IMG/VR virus record: IMGVR_UViG_3300006805_000190
Span: 1 to 21,706 of that record
From: a virus
DNA: 21,706 bases
Reading direction: 5' to 3' (one strand)
The position numbers and the translations under genes are program-made. A model generated the notes under the pieces. That model saw only the letters and a list, made by a program, of their open reading frames with translations. It was not told where the DNA came from and ran no database searches. Below, one piece after another: positions 8,044 through 21,706 of this stretch (within the stretch, counting starts at the first letter, position 1; each line of letters opens with the position of its first letter).

Positions 8044-8354
8044 TAGGATTCACCCAGGAACTTAATAGCCGCTTCCGAATCCGTCCACACGCCGCCTTTT
8101 GCTTCTACTTGCGCCTTGAGTGTGCGCCAGTGTGGCTTTCCGTGCTCGTCGGGTTCTTCCTGAACGCTTGCGGGTTCTTCCTGAACGCTTGCGGGTTCTT
8201 CCTGAACGCTTGCGGGTTCTTCCTGAACGCTTGCGGGCTCTTCGTGAACAAGGACGGTTTTCTTGTCAGGCAAGTATTCAACGCCATCCTGAATGTATTT
8301 TTGAGCACCGCCAACGCCCCACACCATGTTGTAAGGCCGCTTCTCGTCCAACAT
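8043..8354 (-). CDS. Small phage protein with an EEPASVQ repeat, 103 aa
   Basis: The start is taken at 8354, where ATG shares a base with the upstream TGA (TGATG) and GGTGG lies ahead; the reading frame is open further upstream but would run inside the previous gene. The N-terminal 35 residues (MLDEKRPYNMVWGVGGAQKY...) are followed by four exact EEPASVQ repeats plus a partial fifth, an acidic linker. A C-terminal module about 30 residues long follows (HWRTLKAQVEAKGGVWTDSE, ending FLGES). The C-terminal pattern WxxLKxxVEAxGG resembles small helical modules in phage proteins. The linker probably varies in length between relatives. Function unknown. Confidence 0.8.
   Translation of the reverse strand: MLDEKRPYNMVWGVGGAQKYIQDGVEYLPDKKTVLVHEEPASVQEEPASVQEEPASVQEEPASVQEEPDEHGKPHWRTLKAQVEAKGGVWTDSEAAIKFLGES
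8151..8234 (-). repeat. Four perfect 21-bp tandem repeats
   Basis: Four identical 21-bp units lie end to end (8151-8171, 8172-8192, 8193-8213, 8214-8234), each encoding EEPASVQ on the minus strand. A diverged fifth begins at 8235. No base differs among the four, so expansion is recent. Because 21 is a multiple of three, gain or loss of units keeps the frame. Confidence 0.97.
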
Positions 8355-11527: not shown

Positions 11528-13660
11528 TCAACCCCTGGCAAACGGGACTTCCCCATAATCACCCCGGGTCATGACGCCAACCTTGTTGTCTCTGTTGATG
11601 TTTTGCGACAAATTTGCCAGCCGCTCATCCATTTGGCGTGTCTGGCGGGCGATTTCAAACCGTAGCGCACTGGCTTGAAGCTGAAGTTCACCACGTTTGG
11701 TGTCGGAATCGGCCATCTTCAAGTTGGTTTCCACGGTTCCAAGTTCAGCATTGAGCCGCGCAAGTTCCATGGCGTACTCACCCTTCAGGTGTTCGCGCTC
11801 GGACGCAGCCGCCTGAGTCATTTCAGCCGCTCGCAGCCTGGCTTCCGCATCAATCTGCTTCCCTTCAATCAGGCTTTGCGCACGGATATTGGCGACATCC
11901 ACACCGGACCTGAGCCGCTGTATTTCTTCCTGCATGGCTTGAATTTGCTGCTGCATTTGCGGCGGAACGGCATTTTGATCCTGTTTGAAGAATCTTCCGC
12001 CGTCCTTATAACCCAAAGCACCAAATACCTCTTTTATCATTTCCTGAGGGTCTATCATGGCCATCGCTTGAGGCGCGAACTGCCCAATCGCCTGAAGCCC
12101 CATGGCGATCTTCTCAATCCTGCTTTGCGGGCTGGTTGATCCAAACCCGACATTTACCCTACAGGTCAGTTCGGCCATCAGCAGCTTGTCGGTTATCTCA
12201 GTTATGCCGAACTTCTGATAAATCTTGGCCTCTTCCCCGGCAAGCGCCAGAATGGTCTGGTCGTTTTCGTAGGTCTGTATCAGCAGAAGCATTTGTCGCA
12301 GGACAGGCTCAACCCATGTCTGGGCAAACACCATCATTTCGTATTCGGTCAGCGCGCTTGATGCCGAACTCAGCAGGTTCATTCCGCCAACCGTCTCGTT
12401 CAATTGACGATTGCTTGCCACCGAACTGGGTGAAAACGCGCCCAAAAGCTCGTCAATATCTGCATTGACTCGGTCCTGTTCCATGTACGCGGTTTGGGTA
12501 ATGTCTTCCATCGGTTCGGGTTGGACAGAATCAAATTCGTCCATCATCACAATCCCGCCGGGAACACTGCGGCGCAGCATGTTCCAATCGACGTTTCGTC
12601 CCCGTTTCCCAAAATATCGCTTGTTCAGGATCAGCTTTACGTTGTCCAACCGCTGATTGACGATGTCATTCGCTTGGGACGACAGCCCATCAACCAATTC
12701 AGGCGCACCGGCGGGATAGGCTTTGTGCGGCTCAATATCAATCGACCCAAGAACAAAGGGTCGTTTGCCGAAGTGGTAAACCTCTTTAAGCGGAACCGGC
12801 TCAGTCAATAGGCTGTTGTGCCCCAGCGTCCAGAACACAACGTCGGACCCTTCATGCCGGACGATGTATTCCCTGACCCACACGGTGTCGAAGTCTCGAA
12901 GGTGGTGCCTTTGATCGGTCGGGTCCGTTCTACCGTCCTGTCTTACGACCCGGGTTGATGTCGTTCCCTCTTGCGTTGCGGACAGGATTTCATTGTCAGT
13001 ATGTTCCCGCCATTCGCCCGACTTCATCCTTTCCTTGACTTCCCCGACAGATATGGGAATCAACTGAATCAGGTACGGGCTGGTGTTTATCGGGTCCAGC
13101 CAATCCGCCGCAGCAGAGAACCGGAAATTCTCAGCCGGTATCAGGGCAATGTCAGGTCTGTCTGTCTCAACCTTGCCGTTGGATTCCCGGTAAATCCATT
13201 GCTGTTTGGATACAACAATACCCTGAACCTTGGCGTCAGTGAGTGCGCCAATCAGGATGCGAAACCATGGGATTGATTTGTCCAGCCGGTAGTTGAGAAC
13301 GGCTTGGTTAATCGCCGCACTAGCCGCCTGTTCGTCGGAATTATCGTTAGGGGTGATGGAAACAACATCGGACGTTGAAAAGAACGCCACCGCACCCGCA
13401 GCAGCCGACTTTCGAATGCTGGCCCTTACCTTCGGACGGAATACCCGCGAGCGGTATTTGTACGCATCTGTATTGTACTTACTTCCCTGTGGATGCTTCG
13501 ATTGAAACATCGACACATTCTTCTCAATCCTTGAGCGAACATTGGCATCGAACCATGTCGTTGACGTGGTATAGGCGTCCTTGGCAACCTGCAGCCAGAA
13601 GTCCGACCCCGTATCCTTGACAATCTCGGGGGTATCGTTGACTTCCTGAATCCCAATCAT
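11528..13660 (-). CDS. Portal protein, 710 aa
   Basis: The start overlaps the upstream stop by four bases (ATGA). The layout is that of large podoviral portals: an N-terminal helical wing (TTWFDANVRSRIEKNVSMFQ; RVFRPKVRASIRKSAAAGAV), a strand-rich wing (about 145-320), the stem/clip region (ELVDGLSSQANDIVNQRLDN; SSASSALTEYEMMVFAQTWV), and a long C-terminal coiled coil at about 568-690 that would form the internal barrel. It forms the dodecameric ring through which DNA is packaged and ejected, and it docks terminase and adaptor. Large size fits a barrel-bearing portal. The very C-terminus (VMTRGDYGEVPFARG) is polar and probably flexible. Confidence 0.92.
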   Translation of the reverse strand: MIGIQEVNDTPEIVKDTGSDFWLQVAKDAYTTSTTWFDANVRSRIEKNVSMFQSKHPQGSKYNTDAYKYRSRVFRPKVRASIRKSAAAGAVAFFSTSDVVSITPNDNSDEQAASAAINQAVLNYRLDKSIPWFRILIGALTDAKVQGIVVSKQQWIYRESNGKVETDRPDIALIPAENFRFSAAADWLDPINTSPYLIQLIPISVGEVKERMKSGEWREHTDNEILSATQEGTTSTRVVRQDGRTDPTDQRHHLRDFDTVWVREYIVRHEGSDVVFWTLGHNSLLTEPVPLKEVYHFGKRPFVLGSIDIEPHKAYPAGAPELVDGLSSQANDIVNQRLDNVKLILNKRYFGKRGRNVDWNMLRRSVPGGIVMMDEFDSVQPEPMEDITQTAYMEQDRVNADIDELLGAFSPSSVASNRQLNETVGGMNLLSSASSALTEYEMMVFAQTWVEPVLRQMLLLIQTYENDQTILALAGEEAKIYQKFGITEITDKLLMAELTCRVNVGFGSTSPQSRIEKIAMGLQAIGQFAPQAMAMIDPQEMIKEVFGALGYKDGGRFFKQDQNAVPPQMQQQIQAMQEEIQRLRSGVDVANIRAQSLIEGKQIDAEARLRAAEMTQAAASEREHLKGEYAMELARLNAELGTVETNLKMADSDTKRGELQLQASALRFEIARQTRQMDERLANLSQNINRDNKVGVMTRGDYGEVPFARG

Positions 13661-15788: not shown

Positions 15789-15997
15789 TCTTTTAACCTC
15801 GCGTTGCCATCTTCTGTGATCCGGGGGAATCCTGACTCGGTATAGATCATCGTCACACCATACGCCCCGGTGTTAGGTTGTTCCCTAAACTCACGATCCC
15901 CGAACCGATACGCCACTTCTGGATCATTCAAACTAGGATCAAGAGCGTACATCATCGCCCGCCAATCCTGAGTACCGCCGAGCGGCTTACGGTTCAT
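15785..15997 (-). CDS. Small protein coupled to terL and fibre gene, 70 aa
   Basis: Both ends are ATGA overlaps: the start lies in the terL stop and the stop lies in the fibre start. The protein is polar with aromatic residues (KPLGGTQDWRAMMYALDPSL; GAYGVTMIYTESGFPRITED). No family is recognised. Tight coupling on both sides shows it belongs to the late operon and is translated, but it does not reveal function. Confidence 0.75.
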   Translation of the reverse strand: MNRKPLGGTQDWRAMMYALDPSLNDPEVAYRFGDREFREQPNTGAYGVTMIYTESGFPRITEDGNARLKE

Positions 15998-18021
15998 AGG
16001 TCATACGCCCATTCAGGAAACGGGTTTACAACAGCGTGCTCGCCGTACTTCCCAGCGGGCCACGATAGATCAATATCGAATAAGCGCGACATGCAATCAA
16101 GCATAATCCTATTAGAACCCGTTGGAAACAGCAGGTACTCTTGCTCAATGAACAGGTCGATCATGTCCGCCTGTTTGCCATCCGATCTATCCTTTATCAG
16201 CTTCTCGGGCAGCCACATCAACCGGCGTTCAAACGTAGACGTCAGTCGCCGTATCCGGTCCTCTATCTTCAGCGAGCCGTTGCCGTCCTTCGCTTCTTTT
16301 ATCTCGAAGTGGTATTTCTGGCTGTCCATCTCGTCGCGAAGGTGTTGCCGGTCAGAGTCGAACCCGTACTCGTCGTACACCACCGCCAATGGTCTGTATT
16401 TCCTGTGCAGCGCGAATACCAACTTGGTGCGCTCGACCAGGCTCAGTTTGTCCCTGAAGGCGTCCAGCAGGTAGAACCGACCGTCTTCACTCAGGGCGAT
16501 CACCATCACCCCGGTTTCAGTCTGCTCTGGCTGGTTGCGCTTCCTGCCAGCGGGCGACACCAGAATGTAGACGTTATCCCCGGAAATGTTGTGTTGTGCG
16601 TAGAATTTCAACCATTCGATCCGGAAATCCCGTGCACCAGCAGCGGCAACATGGATTCCCGACATCATCAAATAACGTAGGCAGTCCATCAGGTGGTCGT
16701 TTACCTTGACGATCTGCCCCTTATCGTCCCTTCGGTACAGCCTGAATTCAGACAGGAAATTAGTCAGGCTCTTGAACACCTTGAGTCTACCGCCCACCAG
16801 CGCTTGCCAGACCTCGTTAATACCCGCTTCCCGCGAGTTATCGGCGGGGGTTAGGTCAAGTCCTAGGTCCAGGTATTGCTGCATCAACTGCGTGCCGTCA
16901 CTCTGGCCACGACCACGAGCGGCGGGGTCGATAACCCCAGGGATTCTGGTACCCCTCGCCATGACGGACTCAGCGTGTACCGACGGCTCGACCTTGCCTT
17001 GGTAGTGTTCGCTGTAGCAGTACCATGTCCGGGTTTCAGGGTCCTGCGCAGCCCACAGACACGCGGTACGGTTCCAACCAACATCGAGGGCATAGGCTTT
17101 CCGCCAGTGGCCGGGAATCTCGAAATCGTCCACCGTAAATTCGGACTCGGGAACCGGATAGATCGCACCGGACCCCAGTTGAGGGACGCCTTTCGACCGT
17201 GCATCCCGCTGGAACGGTGGAATTGCGTCCCATAGTTCTTTCTTGACCTCTTCGCTCAGGTGAGGCGCGTCATCCCACGTCGCGGTGCAAACGTACTTCC
17301 CGGGTGCGACTTCGTTATCGCCATCCAGCTTCCCACCAGGCAGGAATGCCATAACGACCTCAGAGACGCCCATCAACGGGGTGAACGTCAGCATCAGCAT
17401 CCCGTTGTTGGTCATCGTTCGTAATAGGCATTCGGTGTACACGTCGAGCGGGGGTTCCTCGTCCAGCAGGATAACGTCACGTTCAGTCCCCTGAAACGAC
17501 TCTCGACGCTGGTCGTACGATTTGAGCGTACAGGACGACACCCCGCCGGACGAGTGCTTGACGAATATCGTGTCCACGGCATCGGCAACCCCCGAACTGC
17601 GGGTTACCCGCTCAATCGCATCCCCGGGGATCAGGCCGGTTCCCATGCTTTCCAGCGGGCCAAGCAGCTTGGATTGCAGAATCTCTCTGACAGTCTTGCC
17701 CGTATCCCCAGCAGCCCATGCGGTAATCGCCCTGCCGAAGCGTCTGCCGACCCACCAGTCCGGATATTGCCCGGTGAGGTGCAGCGTGAGTTCGTACAGC
17801 CCCACACCCTCGGTTTTGCCCACACGGTTCGCAGATAGGAACAGCCGCTCGCGGTATCTTGCCCCAGCTTCGAAATACCCCAGGTGTTTGACGTACAGTT
17901 CCCGCCGTAACCGACCGGTGTCAGGGTAATAGTTGAGGATTTTCCGCCGGGACTGTCTGCGCAGCCGCTCCTCGGCTATCTGGATGTACCGGATCTTCTC
18001 TGCCCGTGCGTCCAGATTCAT
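15994..18021 (-). CDS. terL: Terminase large subunit (ATPase plus nuclease), with an extra C-terminal nuclease-like domain, 675 aa
   Basis: This is the packaging motor. Walker A is SANRVGKT at 63-70, Walker B with catalytic acid is DVILLDEE at 182-189, and the coupling motif is TFTP at about 213. A first RNase H-like nuclease follows with D313 (LDVGWN), D365 (IDPAA) and D442/D446 (NDHLMD), completing a normal terminase by about residue 460. Residues 485-654 then read like a second terminase nuclease domain (SEDGRFYLLDAFRDKLSLVE; YRPLAVVYDEYG; LFPTGSNRIMLDCMSRLFDI), but the first expected Asp is Ser489 (VSPAG) and the usual HDDxxDA is NRIMLDC. ATG at 18021 is preferred to TTG at 18024. No Shine-Dalgarno is visible; a hairpin with a T run abuts the start. 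Confidence 0.93.
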   Translation of the reverse strand: MNLDARAEKIRYIQIAEERLRRQSRRKILNYYPDTGRLRRELYVKHLGYFEAGARYRERLFLSANRVGKTEGVGLYELTLHLTGQYPDWWVGRRFGRAITAWAAGDTGKTVREILQSKLLGPLESMGTGLIPGDAIERVTRSSGVADAVDTIFVKHSSGGVSSCTLKSYDQRRESFQGTERDVILLDEEPPLDVYTECLLRTMTNNGMLMLTFTPLMGVSEVVMAFLPGGKLDGDNEVAPGKYVCTATWDDAPHLSEEVKKELWDAIPPFQRDARSKGVPQLGSGAIYPVPESEFTVDDFEIPGHWRKAYALDVGWNRTACLWAAQDPETRTWYCYSEHYQGKVEPSVHAESVMARGTRIPGVIDPAARGRGQSDGTQLMQQYLDLGLDLTPADNSREAGINEVWQALVGGRLKVFKSLTNFLSEFRLYRRDDKGQIVKVNDHLMDCLRYLMMSGIHVAAAGARDFRIEWLKFYAQHNISGDNVYILVSPAGRKRNQPEQTETGVMVIALSEDGRFYLLDAFRDKLSLVERTKLVFALHRKYRPLAVVYDEYGFDSDRQHLRDEMDSQKYHFEIKEAKDGNGSLKIEDRIRRLTSTFERRLMWLPEKLIKDRSDGKQADMIDLFIEQEYLLFPTGSNRIMLDCMSRLFDIDLSWPAGKYGEHAVVNPFPEWAYDL

Positions 18022-18022
18022 C

Positions 18023-18139
18023 AAAAAAGGCCGTTTTCAGGCCAAAGTGGGGAATGGTTTCGTTCCCGCCGCTGGTGGCTTGAGACAAAGTGGGGAATTT
18101 GTACCAAAAAAGGCCCGTTTTCAGGCCAAAGTGGGGAAT
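18023..18139 (-). repeat. Repeat cluster between terS and terL with terminator-like hairpins
   Basis: The 117 bp hold three copies of AAAGTGGGGAAT (plus strand; 18044-18055, 18087-18098, 18128-18139). Two are preceded by AAAAAAGGCC(C)GTTTTCAGGCC. On the minus strand those two read GGCC-TGAAAAC-G(G)GCC followed by six T, like short intrinsic terminators, and the left one ends against the terL start codon. The first copy is followed by TCGTTCCCGCCGCTG at 18060-18074; the same pair recurs at 20640-20672. The right-most copy overlaps the terS stop codon. Function unknown: an attenuator, or a mobile-element remnant. Confidence 0.8.
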
Positions 18140-19168: not shown

Positions 19169-19187
19169 ACACATGCACCAACAAACA

Positions 19188-19200
19188 GCCCCGGGAGGGC
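19188..19200 (+). promoter_or_regulatory. Ribosome-binding hairpin, copy 1
   Basis: GCCC-CGGGA-GGGC forms a four-base stem with the Shine-Dalgarno sequence GGGAGGG in the loop and right arm. Exactly six bases separate it from the ATG at 19207. The same layout occurs before three other genes here. Confidence 0.75.
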
Positions 19201-19206
19201 ACAACG

Positions 19207-19365
19207 ATGAAATACGCCAGACTGTACAAAGTGCGCGGTAAGTGGGAGCTGACCATCGGGCTCGATATTGAATGCAACAGCATCATTAGCATCCGCATGT
19301 ACGAAAAGAAAGCCGACGCACGGCTCGCAGCTCAGGCTGTCGGCGCCAAGCCTGTCAACTTCTGA
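19207..19365 (+). CDS. Small early-type phage protein, 52 aa
   Basis: First gene of the rightward group. The ATG at 19207 is set by the hairpin ribosome-binding site; the frame is open upstream but has no initiation signal. The protein is compact and mixed (KYARLYKVRGKWELTIGLDI; RMYEKKADARLAAQAVGAKP), with two or three strands followed by a helix. No family is recognised. Position and size fit an early phage protein that modifies host physiology (inference). Confidence 0.7.
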   Translation: MKYARLYKVRGKWELTIGLDIECNSIISIRMYEKKADARLAAQAVGAKPVNF

Positions 19366-19395
19366 CCATCCCGCGCCACGGACGGCGCACCACCA

Positions 19396-19408
19396 GCCCC
19401 GGGAGGGC
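19396..19408 (+). promoter_or_regulatory. Ribosome-binding hairpin, copy 2
   Basis: GCCC-CGGGA-GGGC, identical to copy 1, with six bases to the ATG at 19415. Confidence 0.75.
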
Positions 19409-19414
19409 GAGAAA

Positions 19415-19675
19415 ATGAACAAGTTATCTTACCTGGACGTGTACGGCGTTATCCAGCTATACGCAGGTAGCGTCCTGCCCATGTACGCAGACGGCTGGGA
19501 GCGGTTCCCGTGTGGCCAGTATGCGCGCCTGGTGGTTGAAAAGCTGCGCGATGAGGCGCGGTTTTGGTCGGGCCGGAAAGATGATGTCGCGCGACGGCTA
19601 ACAGAGGCGGCAGATGAGATCGAATACCGCGCTAACAGCCAACCACAAGCCCGGGGAGGGCGAGAAAATGAGTAA
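19415..19675 (+). CDS. Small early-type phage protein, 86 aa
   Basis: The start follows the second hairpin ribosome-binding site. The protein reads KLSYLDVYGVIQLYAGSVLP, then a charged helical half (RLVVEKLRDEARFWSGRKDD; ARRLTEAADEIEYRANSQ). Its last residues (QPQARGGRENE) are the translation of the third ribosome-binding hairpin, so the reading frame runs through the control site of the next gene and overlaps that gene by eight bases. Ribosomes finishing here would open the next hairpin, which suggests coupling. No family recognised. Confidence 0.72.
   Translation: MNKLSYLDVYGVIQLYAGSVLPMYADGWERFPCGQYARLVVEKLRDEARFWSGRKDDVARRLTEAADEIEYRANSQPQARGGRENE
19649..19661 (+). promoter_or_regulatory. 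Ribosome-binding hairpin, copy 3
   Basis: GCCC-GGGGA-GGGC with six bases to the ATG at 19668. It lies inside the 3' end of the preceding gene. Confidence 0.75.
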
Positions 19676-19898
19676 CGTAGTGCACGAAAAAGGGAATGAA
19701 TGGGGCGGGTTCACCATCCGCGAGGCGCCGACCGGGCATATCTTAGAGCGCTGGTCGCGCATAGAGGGCAACGTGGACGGGCTCCGGGTTCTGGTGCCAT
19801 ATGGCGGAGACTTCCCAAAAGGCACCGACTTTTCGGCACCGTGGAATGAGTGGGTTGAAAACGGGTCGGAGTTTGCGCACCTAACGCTTCCGACTTAA
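19668..19898 (+). CDS. Small early-type phage protein ending in an attC-like site, 76 aa
   Basis: The start follows the third hairpin ribosome-binding site, placing it with the phage's own small genes. The protein is mixed polar (VVHEKGNEWGGFTIREAPTG; RVLVPYGGDFPKGTDFSAPW) with several aromatic residues, and no family is recognised. Its last codons (HLTLPT) and TAA stop are part of the attC-like site at 19879-19942: the first core box ACCTAAC is read through and the stop lies 11 bases later. Cassette genes usually end in or near this box, so the 3' end of this gene may have been set by a cassette insertion. Confidence 0.7.
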   Translation: MSNVVHEKGNEWGGFTIREAPTGHILERWSRIEGNVDGLRVLVPYGGDFPKGTDFSAPWNEWVENGSEFAHLTLPT

Positions 19899-19942
19899 CC
19901 GGCGACGCTGAAGGCGGCGTCCGGTTGAAGGAGTGGTTAGCC
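19879..19942 (+). mobile_element. attC-like integron recombination site 1 (64 bp)
   Basis: The left core ACCTAAC (fits RYYYAAC) and right core GTTAGCC (six of seven to GTTRRRY) flank two inner arms, AACCGG-CG-ACGC and GCGTCCGGTT, which pair over ten bases with two bulged bases. Core boxes at the ends, paired inner arms and unpaired extra bases are the hallmarks of folded single-strand attC substrates of integron integrases. The preceding gene ends inside the site and the next gene starts 34 bases after it, as in cassette arrays. Confidence 0.7.
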
Positions 19943-19975
19943 GAGCCACGACGGAAACAACAAAAGGAGGAAGAC

Positions 19976-20221
19976 ATGAACGACCTTTTGAATATGGACT
20001 ACATCAACAGCCTGCCCCAACCGCTATTGATGCGGTTCTACGGTGACAAGGATACTTGGTGGGAAGTCGAGAGCATCGACGTTGAAACCGGATGTCTCCG
20101 AATCTTGGTGTGTGGGTTACTCCAGGTGAGCCATATCGGAGAGGTTGCCGCTTTCAAAGATCTGAATGACGTGGAGTATGACCCCGACACGTTATACAAC
20201 GAATCTGAAATGGTCGGCTAA
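19976..20221 (+). CDS. Putative integron-cassette gene, unknown function, 81 aa
   Basis: AAAGGAGG lies five bases before the ATG at 19976, a standard ribosome-binding site unlike the hairpin type of the neighbours. The protein is acidic with DKDTWWEVESIDVETGCLRI and CGLLQVSHIGEVAAFKDLND, a compact strand-rich fold. Small hypothetical proteins with WWEVExIDVExGxLRI and HIGxVxxF patterns occur in bacterial genomes, but no function is known to me. The gene lies alone between two attC-like sites, and its TAA is inside the left core of the second (GGCTAAC), so gene plus site form one complete cassette of about 332 bp. Different start signal and context indicate acquisition from outside the phage. 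Confidence 0.78.
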   Translation: MNDLLNMDYINSLPQPLLMRFYGDKDTWWEVESIDVETGCLRILVCGLLQVSHIGEVAAFKDLNDVEYDPDTLYNESEMVG

Positions 20222-20274
20222 CGCCTGAATTAAGCCGACAGCGAAGCCAGTTCGGCTTGAATGAATTGTTAGGC
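20216..20274 (+). mobile_element. attC-like integron recombination site 2 (59 bp)
   Basis: The left core GGCTAAC and right core GTTAGGC lie at the ends. Inner arms AAGCCGA and TCGGCTT pair over seven bases. The spacers contain GAATT and GAATGAATT, leaving unpaired bases, and a short GC/GAA/GC tip lies at the centre. The length equals the classical 59-base element, and the strand complementary to this one closely recalls the attC of aadA-type cassettes (TAACAATTCxTTCAAGCC... GGCTTAA...GCGTTAG), from memory. The upstream stop codon is in the left core and the next gene starts 24 bases after the right core. Confidence 0.82.
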
Positions 20275-20297
20275 CTCAACCTGCATAGGAGCAGAAG

Positions 20298-20558
20298 ATG
20301 CAAGCCGAAGACTACAGAGAAACAATGCCAAAAGACTGGCAAGAAGGCTATCGGGCGGCGATGAATGATGCCGCGTGCGTTGTACGCGAGTTGTACGCGA
20401 ACTACACGTACCACGGCGGAGCTGACGGCCTGTTGGCGCGGTGCCAAGAGGCTGAGCAGGTCTTCATTGGCGATGCCGAAAAAATGCTTGGGCTGTTGAG
20501 GCCTAACTCCCGCCGACCCGGCGCCAAGGTGCTGCGACGAGGCCGAATCGTGGAATAG
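20298..20558 (+). CDS. Putative second cassette gene with altered 3' end, 86 aa
   Basis: AGGAG precedes the ATG at 20298 at normal spacing, and the gene starts just after the second attC-like site. The protein begins QAEDYRETMPKDWQEGYRAA and contains MNDAACVVRELYANYTYHGG and a helical middle. At residues 68-71 the frame reads through GCCTAAC, a perfect left-core sequence, as Arg-Pro-Asn, and continues with a basic tail (SRRPGAKVLRRGRIVE) to TAG. No matching right core follows. A cassette gene that lost its attC and fused to foreign sequence fits this best. Function unknown. Confidence 0.7.
   Translation: MQAEDYRETMPKDWQEGYRAAMNDAACVVRELYANYTYHGGADGLLARCQEAEQVFIGDAEKMLGLLRPNSRRPGAKVLRRGRIVE
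20501..20507 (+). mobile_element. Possible remnant left core of a third attC site
   Basis: GCCTAAC fits RYYYAAC exactly and sits near the 3' end of a short gene at the expected cassette distance, but no GTTRRRY partner follows before the terminator at 20583. Seven bases can match by chance, so the call depends on the neighbouring intact sites. Confidence 0.3.
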
Positions 20559-20582
20559 ACCAACCACCCAACACACACCAAC

Positions 20583-20605
20583 AGCCCCTTAACCGGGGCT
20601 TTTTT
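20583..20605 (+). terminator. Intrinsic terminator after the cassette-like genes
   Basis: AGCCCC and GGGGCT form a six-base stem with a six-base loop followed by TTTTTG. It lies 24 bases after the last cassette-like gene and would end rightward transcription there. Confidence 0.8.
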
Positions 20606-20836: not shown

Positions 20837-20851
20837 TCATCTACAGCAACA

Positions 20852-21264: not shown

Positions 21265-21706
21265 ATGTGGATGACAACGCTAGAACAAATTAGATCACAT
21301 TCGCCGTGCGAAACCGGGTGGAAGCGGCTTCTCAAACACCTAGGTAAAACCAAGGCCGACGACGAGCCGCTTTCGATCATATCAATACTCGACAGTAACG
21401 GGCTTGATGACGCGCTGTGGTGCTTGCGGGCGGCGGAGGGGCATGACGCTGAGATACGACTCTACGCAGTTTGGTGTGCGCGCCAGGTTGAGCACTTGAT
21501 GACCGATCCGCGCAGCCTCAACGCTCTGGACGTAGCCGAACGATATGCACATGGGGCTGCGACCCCGGATGAATTGGCTGCTGCGGGGGCTGCTGCGGGG
21601 GATGCTGCGTGGGCTGCGTGGGCTGCTGCGCGGGCTGCTGCGGGGGCTGCGCGGGATGCTGCGTGGGCTGCTGCGCGGGATGCTGCGGGGGCTGCTGCGG
21701 GGGCTG
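21265..21706 (+). CDS. Phage protein with Ala-rich repeat tail (cut by window edge)
   Basis: GAGGG lies eight bases before the ATG at 21265. The N-terminal about 100 residues are folded-looking (TTLEQIRSHSPCETGWKRLL; RLYAVWCARQVEHLMTDPRS; ALDVAERYAHGAATPDELAA). Proteins with the same CLRAxxxHxxxxRLxAVWCARQVxHLMxDPRSxxALDVAERxAxG core followed by long AAxAAW/AAR tracts occur in other phages, from memory. From about residue 107 the sequence is a repeat of Ala with Gly, Asp, Trp and Arg, encoded by GCT-GCG-NGG units. There is no stop before the window end. Function unknown. Confidence 0.82.
   Translation, partial: MWMTTLEQIRSHSPCETGWKRLLKHLGKTKADDEPLSIISILDSNGLDDALWCLRAAEGHDAEIRLYAVWCARQVEHLMTDPRSLNALDVAERYAHGAATPDELAAAGAAAGDAAWAAWAAARAAAGAARDAAWAAARDAAGAAAGA

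Follow-up and report, generated by a model that had tools for sequence, protein, structure and literature searches.

The window, which is the whole stretch of DNA that was analysed, comprises the entire IMG/VR virus record IMGVR_UViG_3300006805_000190 (21,706 nucleotides; 21.7 kb). A leftward late module with the terminase, an SU10-type portal and an SU10 adaptor can be distinguished from the rightward small early genes, and two integron-type attC sites lie among the latter. The features considered in this paper are displayed below, with R1 denoting the attC covariance model described after them.

11528..13660, minus strand: SU10-type portal protein (PF23899, 3.8e-39)
15994..18024, minus strand: terminase large subunit (PF03237, 2.9e-19; phrog_2, 2.7e-26)
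19174, 19382 and 19635 (within 19174..19671), plus strand: leader repeat CAACAGCCCCGGGAGGGC of the phage (repeat family D2), each of its three copies here preceding a phage gene
19668..19898, plus strand: gene 1, 76 aa, a phage gene with its 3' end apparently replaced by site 1
19879..19942, minus strand: attC site 1, with a length of 64 bp, R' GTTAGGT and crossover 19885/19884 (R1 32.8 bits, E=1.7e-6)
19885..20221, minus strand: cassette 2, a mobile unit of 337 bp by boundary calculation, consisting of antisense gene 2 and attC site 1
19976..20221, plus strand: gene 2, 81 aa, with Shine-Dalgarno sequence AAAGGAGG; its stop codon is the final triplet of cassette 2
20216..20274, minus strand: attC site 2, with a length of 59 bp, R' GTTAGCC and crossover 20222/20221 (R1 68.2 bits, E=6.8e-16)
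20222..20506, minus strand: cassette 1, a mobile unit of 285 bp, consisting of the antisense 5' 69 codons of gene 3 and attC site 2
20298..20558, plus strand: gene 3, 86 aa, of which the C-terminal 17 are encoded by the flank
20495..20507, minus strand: outer G^TT boundary of the insertion, crossover 20507/20506 (no R1 match)

The combination of SU10 portal, adaptor and terminase (PF23899, PF24175, PF03237) identifies the record as an SU10-like podovirus. A second IMG/VR record, L004, is 99.99% identical over 13.6 kb and contains both attC sites. The claim that integron cassettes reside within a phage genome was thus borne out by the portal and terminase in the record and by the agreement of L004. 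No match to PF00589, and hence no integrase, was obtained in the record, which is a fragment; the intI, attI and Pc of a complete integron were likewise not found in this fragment. Two attC sites 337 bp apart, with intI absent from the record, correspond to the arrangement known as CALIN.

The preliminary description had claimed two attC-like sites of 64 and 59 bp and proposed a covariance-model scan of both strands. Model R1, which was derived from 16 attC sites of bacterial plasmids and includes no phage sequence, was run over the whole window with filters off. Both sites were confirmed, each on the minus strand, and the third-best place in the 21.7 kb reached E=0.2. At both sites the core boxes (RYYYAAC/GTTRRRY), the L'' and L' arms, an extrahelical base and an imperfect palindrome can be recognized. 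When 2793 plasmid records were searched with site 2, matches were obtained to the attC of aadB, sat2, aadA16, catB and SMR cassettes, the best place per record being mostly 80-90% identical and reaching 90% for class 1 cassettes; site 1 had no attC match in the plasmids. A search of Rfam gave no match. The two sites are, by these comparisons, genuine integron attC. Examination of the fold, also proposed previously, gave a divided outcome, as the extra C in L'' is visible in the R1 alignments but the single-strand folding energies (z -1.1 to -2.4) are weak support by themselves; folding energy was dropped as proof of attC identity for this reason. A third attC suspected at 20494-20560 was rejected, having no covariance-model match and an unremarkable fold.

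The orientation of the sites is the reverse of that described previously, in which each gene was followed by its attC on the plus strand. On that strand, R1 does not recognize site 1 at all and gives site 2 only 13.7 bits, so that site 2 has 68 bits on the minus strand versus 14 on the plus. When class 1 integrons and a Desulforapulum plasmid array are superposed on site 2, their cassette genes and the phage genes fall on opposite strands. As both attC sites are oriented minus and the phage-type open reading frames plus, the genes are antisense to their own attC, and with this inverted polarity the cores formerly called left and right are swapped in function. The usual cassette arrangement, in which the gene is sense to attC and stops at the R'' side, was not found in the window. 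The canonical plus-strand reading was therefore rejected on the basis of the covariance-model polarity and the boundaries of the blocks shared between contigs described below.

Crossovers at G^TT (19885/19884, 20222/20221 and 20507/20506) mark off two units, each extending from one G^TT to the next and possessing its own attC, as gene cassettes do, with each attC located just 5' of its gene. It had been supposed that the one small gene between the sites was the sole cassette; because the third G^TT boundary at 20507/20506 closes the unit of gene 3, two complete cassettes are present. The start of cassette 2, TTAGCCGA, is fully complementary over 9 nt to its own R'' core, TCGGCTAAC, and the start of cassette 1, TTAGGCCTCAAC, is perfectly complementary over 13 nt to the core at its own R'' (20268-20280), which can also be seen as inverted repeat I2 (20268-20280 / 20495-20507). 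Such complementarity is expected of a circular cassette. Neither an attC nor an attI structure was found behind the outer boundary at 20495..20507, and the crossover at 20507 is consistent with an attG-like (GWT) secondary target, a minimal G^TT.

The product of gene 2 is 50% identical over 78 aa to gp20 of the Pseudomonas phage phiAH14a, and more distant homologues exist in Vibrio phages. These phage homologues indicate that gene 2 is real and reads on the plus strand. No homologue was found in plasmids, and in the genome contigs only a spurious short match to a large Desulfobacterales protein was obtained. Gene 2 is a phage-type gene and none of the known bacterial cassette genes. Gene 3, for which no family match was found, reads out of cassette 1, and in the closed circle it would stop two codons on, after ...LLRPNA. 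As to the preceding gene, it was correctly observed that gene 1 stops inside site 1, but it is not a cassette gene and is apparently a truncated phage gene. Its homologue at L089:935-1213 (92 aa), which adjoins a phage terminase, has TDFSAPWN in common with it and extends ~20 aa beyond it, and gene 1 appears to have been shortened by the cassette insertion. The leader repeat, of which a fourth copy occurs at 20838, precedes early genes that are the phage's own and is absent before genes 2 and 3. Additionally, a scan of ~80 terminase relatives showed no attC above noise except in L004. The truncation of gene 1, the missing leader, the attC-free relatives and the complementarity of cassette starts to R'' together argue for a foreign insertion.

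The recurrence of this arrangement was surveyed in IMG/VR with three pattern scans blind to gene orientation, followed by R1. A total of 61 non-redundant viral contigs with 182 attC sites were collected, from a database in which most records are fragments; as the search patterns target one attC type, most of these attC belong to the class 1 / Xanthomonadales type. Polarity was scored for each site with a simple ORF caller, according to whether a gene with a Shine-Dalgarno sequence and start codon leaves the attC antisense or sense. In the viral contigs, 125 sites were antisense, 1 sense, 6 both and 40 neither, and the distance between the end of the attC and the start codon is 15-31 nt. The corresponding numbers were 0 antisense and 16 sense in Desulfobacterota genomes, and 0 and 10 in plasmids. 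Compared to this bacterial control of one phylum plus plasmids, with 26 scorable sites, the viral polarity differs with a Fisher p of 2e-28 when sites are compared and of about 1e-15 when contigs are (45-46 antisense contigs). When cassettes were counted instead, 94 viral ones were antisense and 3 sense. The published phages H101 and ctTUS972 are also inverted: in H101 the attC are on the plus strand and all genes on the minus, and in ctTUS972 the attC are on the minus strand and the genes on the plus. No match was found in TJE1 and P12002L at the R1 threshold used, and one weak sense match in TJE1 (18.4 bits) was left uncounted. Of the 46 whole records, 11 have a phrog_2 terminase, and further loci contain portals and terminases of other kinds. 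The window is, by these counts, one case of a larger group of environmental viruses whose cassette genes lie the opposite way round from bacterial ones. With its 10 attC, the array at L103:6190-10400 was the richest seen; the phage contig that carries it measures 59 kb and also encodes a terminase.

Single cassettes, 72-97% identical, are common to otherwise unrelated contigs. The pairs include L126/L138 (97% over 373 bp), L119/L179 (95% over 294 bp), L104/L159 (91% over 345 bp), L142/L159 (78%) and L103/L162 (76%), and in the first three of these the 5' ends of the shared blocks are at G^TT. The L126/L138 block extends from R' to the next R', with attC at the 5' side of the gene. Among all 24 shared blocks, 6 start <=3 bp from a called crossover and the remaining 18 do not; random sliding of the 24 blocks gave a mean of 0.5 and a maximum of 4 in 2000 trials. 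Because the shared blocks carry attC on the 5' side of the gene, the called polarity coincides with the unit exchanged, an independent confirmation of it. These findings suggest that cassettes have been swapped between unrelated phages as single units. Separately, an attC marks the exact start of a 1.4 kb stretch over which the related viral contigs L145 and L165 are 93% identical; upstream of this attC the two diverge, a candidate for a recent array rearrangement.

The cargo of these arrays includes phage accessory genes. Among the 129 cassette proteins, those assigned to a known family include N6_N4 DNA methylases, Mom, N4 gp49/Sf6 gp66, dATP/dGTP pyrophosphohydrolase and several phage DUFs. 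In Pseudomonas phage KPP23, a gene was found that matches one of the L103 cassette genes at the DNA level, in the gene body only, and no attC was found around this gene in KPP23, which indicates that ordinary phage genes occur both inside and outside cassettes. With the exception of two isolate-derived records, no tyrosine recombinase was found in the first batch of array records, the window included; some other array phages carry ordinary integrases. Among the array-carrying viral records checked, only the isolate-derived L106 and L160 and the contig of L127 exceeded the IntI cut-off. As the record contains no integrase, the IntI of the host, acting in trans, is the likely enzyme, and the role proposed for it in the preliminary description remains plausible by inference. 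It is supported by the published finding that five of six attC tested from other virulent phages recombine with IntI1 (PMC9892861). The contig of L127 (G051), a 45 kb viral contig, has an IntI above the family cut-off at 42135-43070. An attC lies near this IntI (L211:6019-6076), and L127 contains an attC whose gene is antisense; the contig may represent a phage that encodes an integron integrase of its own, or a prophage that has become linked to an integron.

The attC identity, the polarity, the unit boundaries, the recurrence, the exchange breakpoints and the contrast with bacteria are demonstrated here by comparison of sequences. The model proposed to account for them, to which a probability of roughly three in four is assigned, is that two tandem cassettes in an SU10-like podovirus belong to a phage-borne pool of inverted polarity, exchanged between phages and moved by host IntI. 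Both cassettes would have entered at a single G^TT downstream of an early phage gene, each consisting of an attC and then, in the reading direction of the gene, a small phage-type gene antisense to it. Host IntI most likely acts on the folded bottom strand of attC, by which cassettes could enter, exit and be swapped; preference of IntI for the bottom strand is reported in PMC9892861. In the window, this bottom strand is the coding (plus) strand. The cassette genes are co-directional with the neighbouring early genes and probably co-transcribed with them, presumably from phage promoters.

A reason for the inversion can be suggested. In chromosomal integrons the bottom strand is on the leading-strand template, and in a Vibrio cholerae array that was inverted, which placed the bottom strand on the lagging template, excision was sharply increased (PMC11023631). 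In phage arrays it is the coding strand, and hence also the one that transcription displaces; wherever the genes are co-directional with the fork, it would serve as the lagging template. The inversion may thus place it on the lagging-strand template or the displaced coding strand, allowing more folding and recombination; perhaps it also keeps the phage genes unexpressed behind Pc once a host integron has captured them. Agreement with GC skew was found in 43/61 viral versus 6/30 bacterial cases, a comparison confounded with coding direction. It is a tentative idea, somewhat more doubtful than credible, that inversion opens the arrays of the phage pool to rapid exchange in infection, with host integrons serving as a shared silent exchange station.

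Other explanations of the arrangement can be divided according to whether the cassettes are considered bacterial. Uptake by the phage of ordinary bacterial cassettes with standard polarity, gene then attC on the plus strand, would explain why the placement of the plus-strand genes looks canonical, with a short leader, a Shine-Dalgarno sequence and the stop codon in the core. However, this is very improbable, for the attC asymmetry is minus at both sites, the genes that accompany homologous attC in plasmids and Desulforapulum point in the opposite direction, the cassettes shared by related contigs have attC at the 5' side of the gene, and the second unit would be left on the plus strand without an attC after gene 3. 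Alternatively, phages may sample bacterial cassettes with reversed ORFs, in arrays that insert in either orientation and of which the phage would transcribe only the reversed ORFs, and no distinct pool would be needed. Reversed ORFs are believed to be present in some bacterial cassettes, and insertion at G^TT requires no polarity. Nevertheless, free orientation predicts that sense cassettes dominate in co-directional arrays, and only 1 of the 126 scorable sites is sense; the cassette genes match phage families and the cassettes are common to different phages, which makes this explanation unlikely.

The sites could also be regarded as relics or as RNA hairpins between phage genes, acting in termination, processing or translation control instead of recombination. 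With start codons so close to the attC end, hairpins would indeed form in the mRNA leaders; yet the core boxes and unpaired features are retained, shared blocks start at G^TT, both cassettes begin with a sequence complementary to their own R'', and the recombination with IntI1 of most tested attC from other virulent phages, cited above, also speaks against a purely RNA function, so that little weight can be given to it. Mis-called bacterial integrons or chimeric assemblies are the remaining source of error, and the few matches from isolate genomes with IntI (L106, L160) are bacterial-looking. Against this, the window has portal, terminase and adaptor with L004 in agreement, terminases or portals occur in many other contigs, and complete published phage genomes show the same arrangement; an artifact of this kind is extremely improbable. 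The reading preferred here remains that of an inverted, phage-borne cassette pool.

Phage attC sites were known before this study. According to Qi et al. 2023 (PMC9892861), 17 attC clusters without integrase exist in 10,705 phage genomes, both virulent and temperate. The statement that phages carrying cassettes are rarely described holds less well than was thought, since such sites are already published and dozens of IMG/VR contigs show the arrangement again. The window resembles these phage-borne CALINs; unlike the present analysis, the text consulted does not comment on the polarity of gene versus attC, and the exchange of cassettes between phages is not described there. Two of its phages were re-scored here and both are inverted. 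In attC sequence and structure, the window is similar to the cassettes of class 1 mobile integrons (aadA, aadB, sat2, SMR), but the gene polarity is opposite, intI, attI and Pc are missing, and the cargo is phage genes instead of resistance. Tandem small-gene cassettes and attC without a nearby integrase are shared with sedentary chromosomal integrons and Xanthomonas CALINs, whereas the scorable genes of the bacterial control are sense to attC and chromosomal integrons are reported with the bottom strand on the leading-strand template (PMC11023631). Like cassette insertion at attG (GWT) sites (Loot et al. 2024, cited in PMC11023631 and PMC12901181), that in the window involves a minimal G^TT outside attI, at 20507/20506, except that the target here is a phage genome. 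No earlier account of the inversion or of phage-to-phage cassette exchange was found in the open-licence literature.

Integrons are viewed as bacterial devices and phages as their occasional carriers. The data point to a distinct phage-borne cassette pool, with inverted polarity as its mark and with Mom and DNA methylases among its cargo. If true, a site-specific route would be added to phage mosaicism, host integrons would be tied to the phage-host arms race, and a clean prediction would follow on the attC strand used in phages.

Several other elements of the record can be mentioned. The leader repeat with its Shine-Dalgarno sequence may be a phage-wide translation or regulatory element. A probable intrinsic terminator, AGCCCC TTAACC GGGGCT TTTTT, was read from the sequence at 20583-20605, directly after the cassette insertion. 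In the late region, an in-frame tandem repeat at 8150-8249 encodes PASVQEE units. At the end of the window (21569-21706), a run of GGGCTGCTGCG-type repeats encodes an Ala-rich tail that runs off the window; the same type of repeat is found at 1243-1430 of L004, the sequence of which extends beyond.
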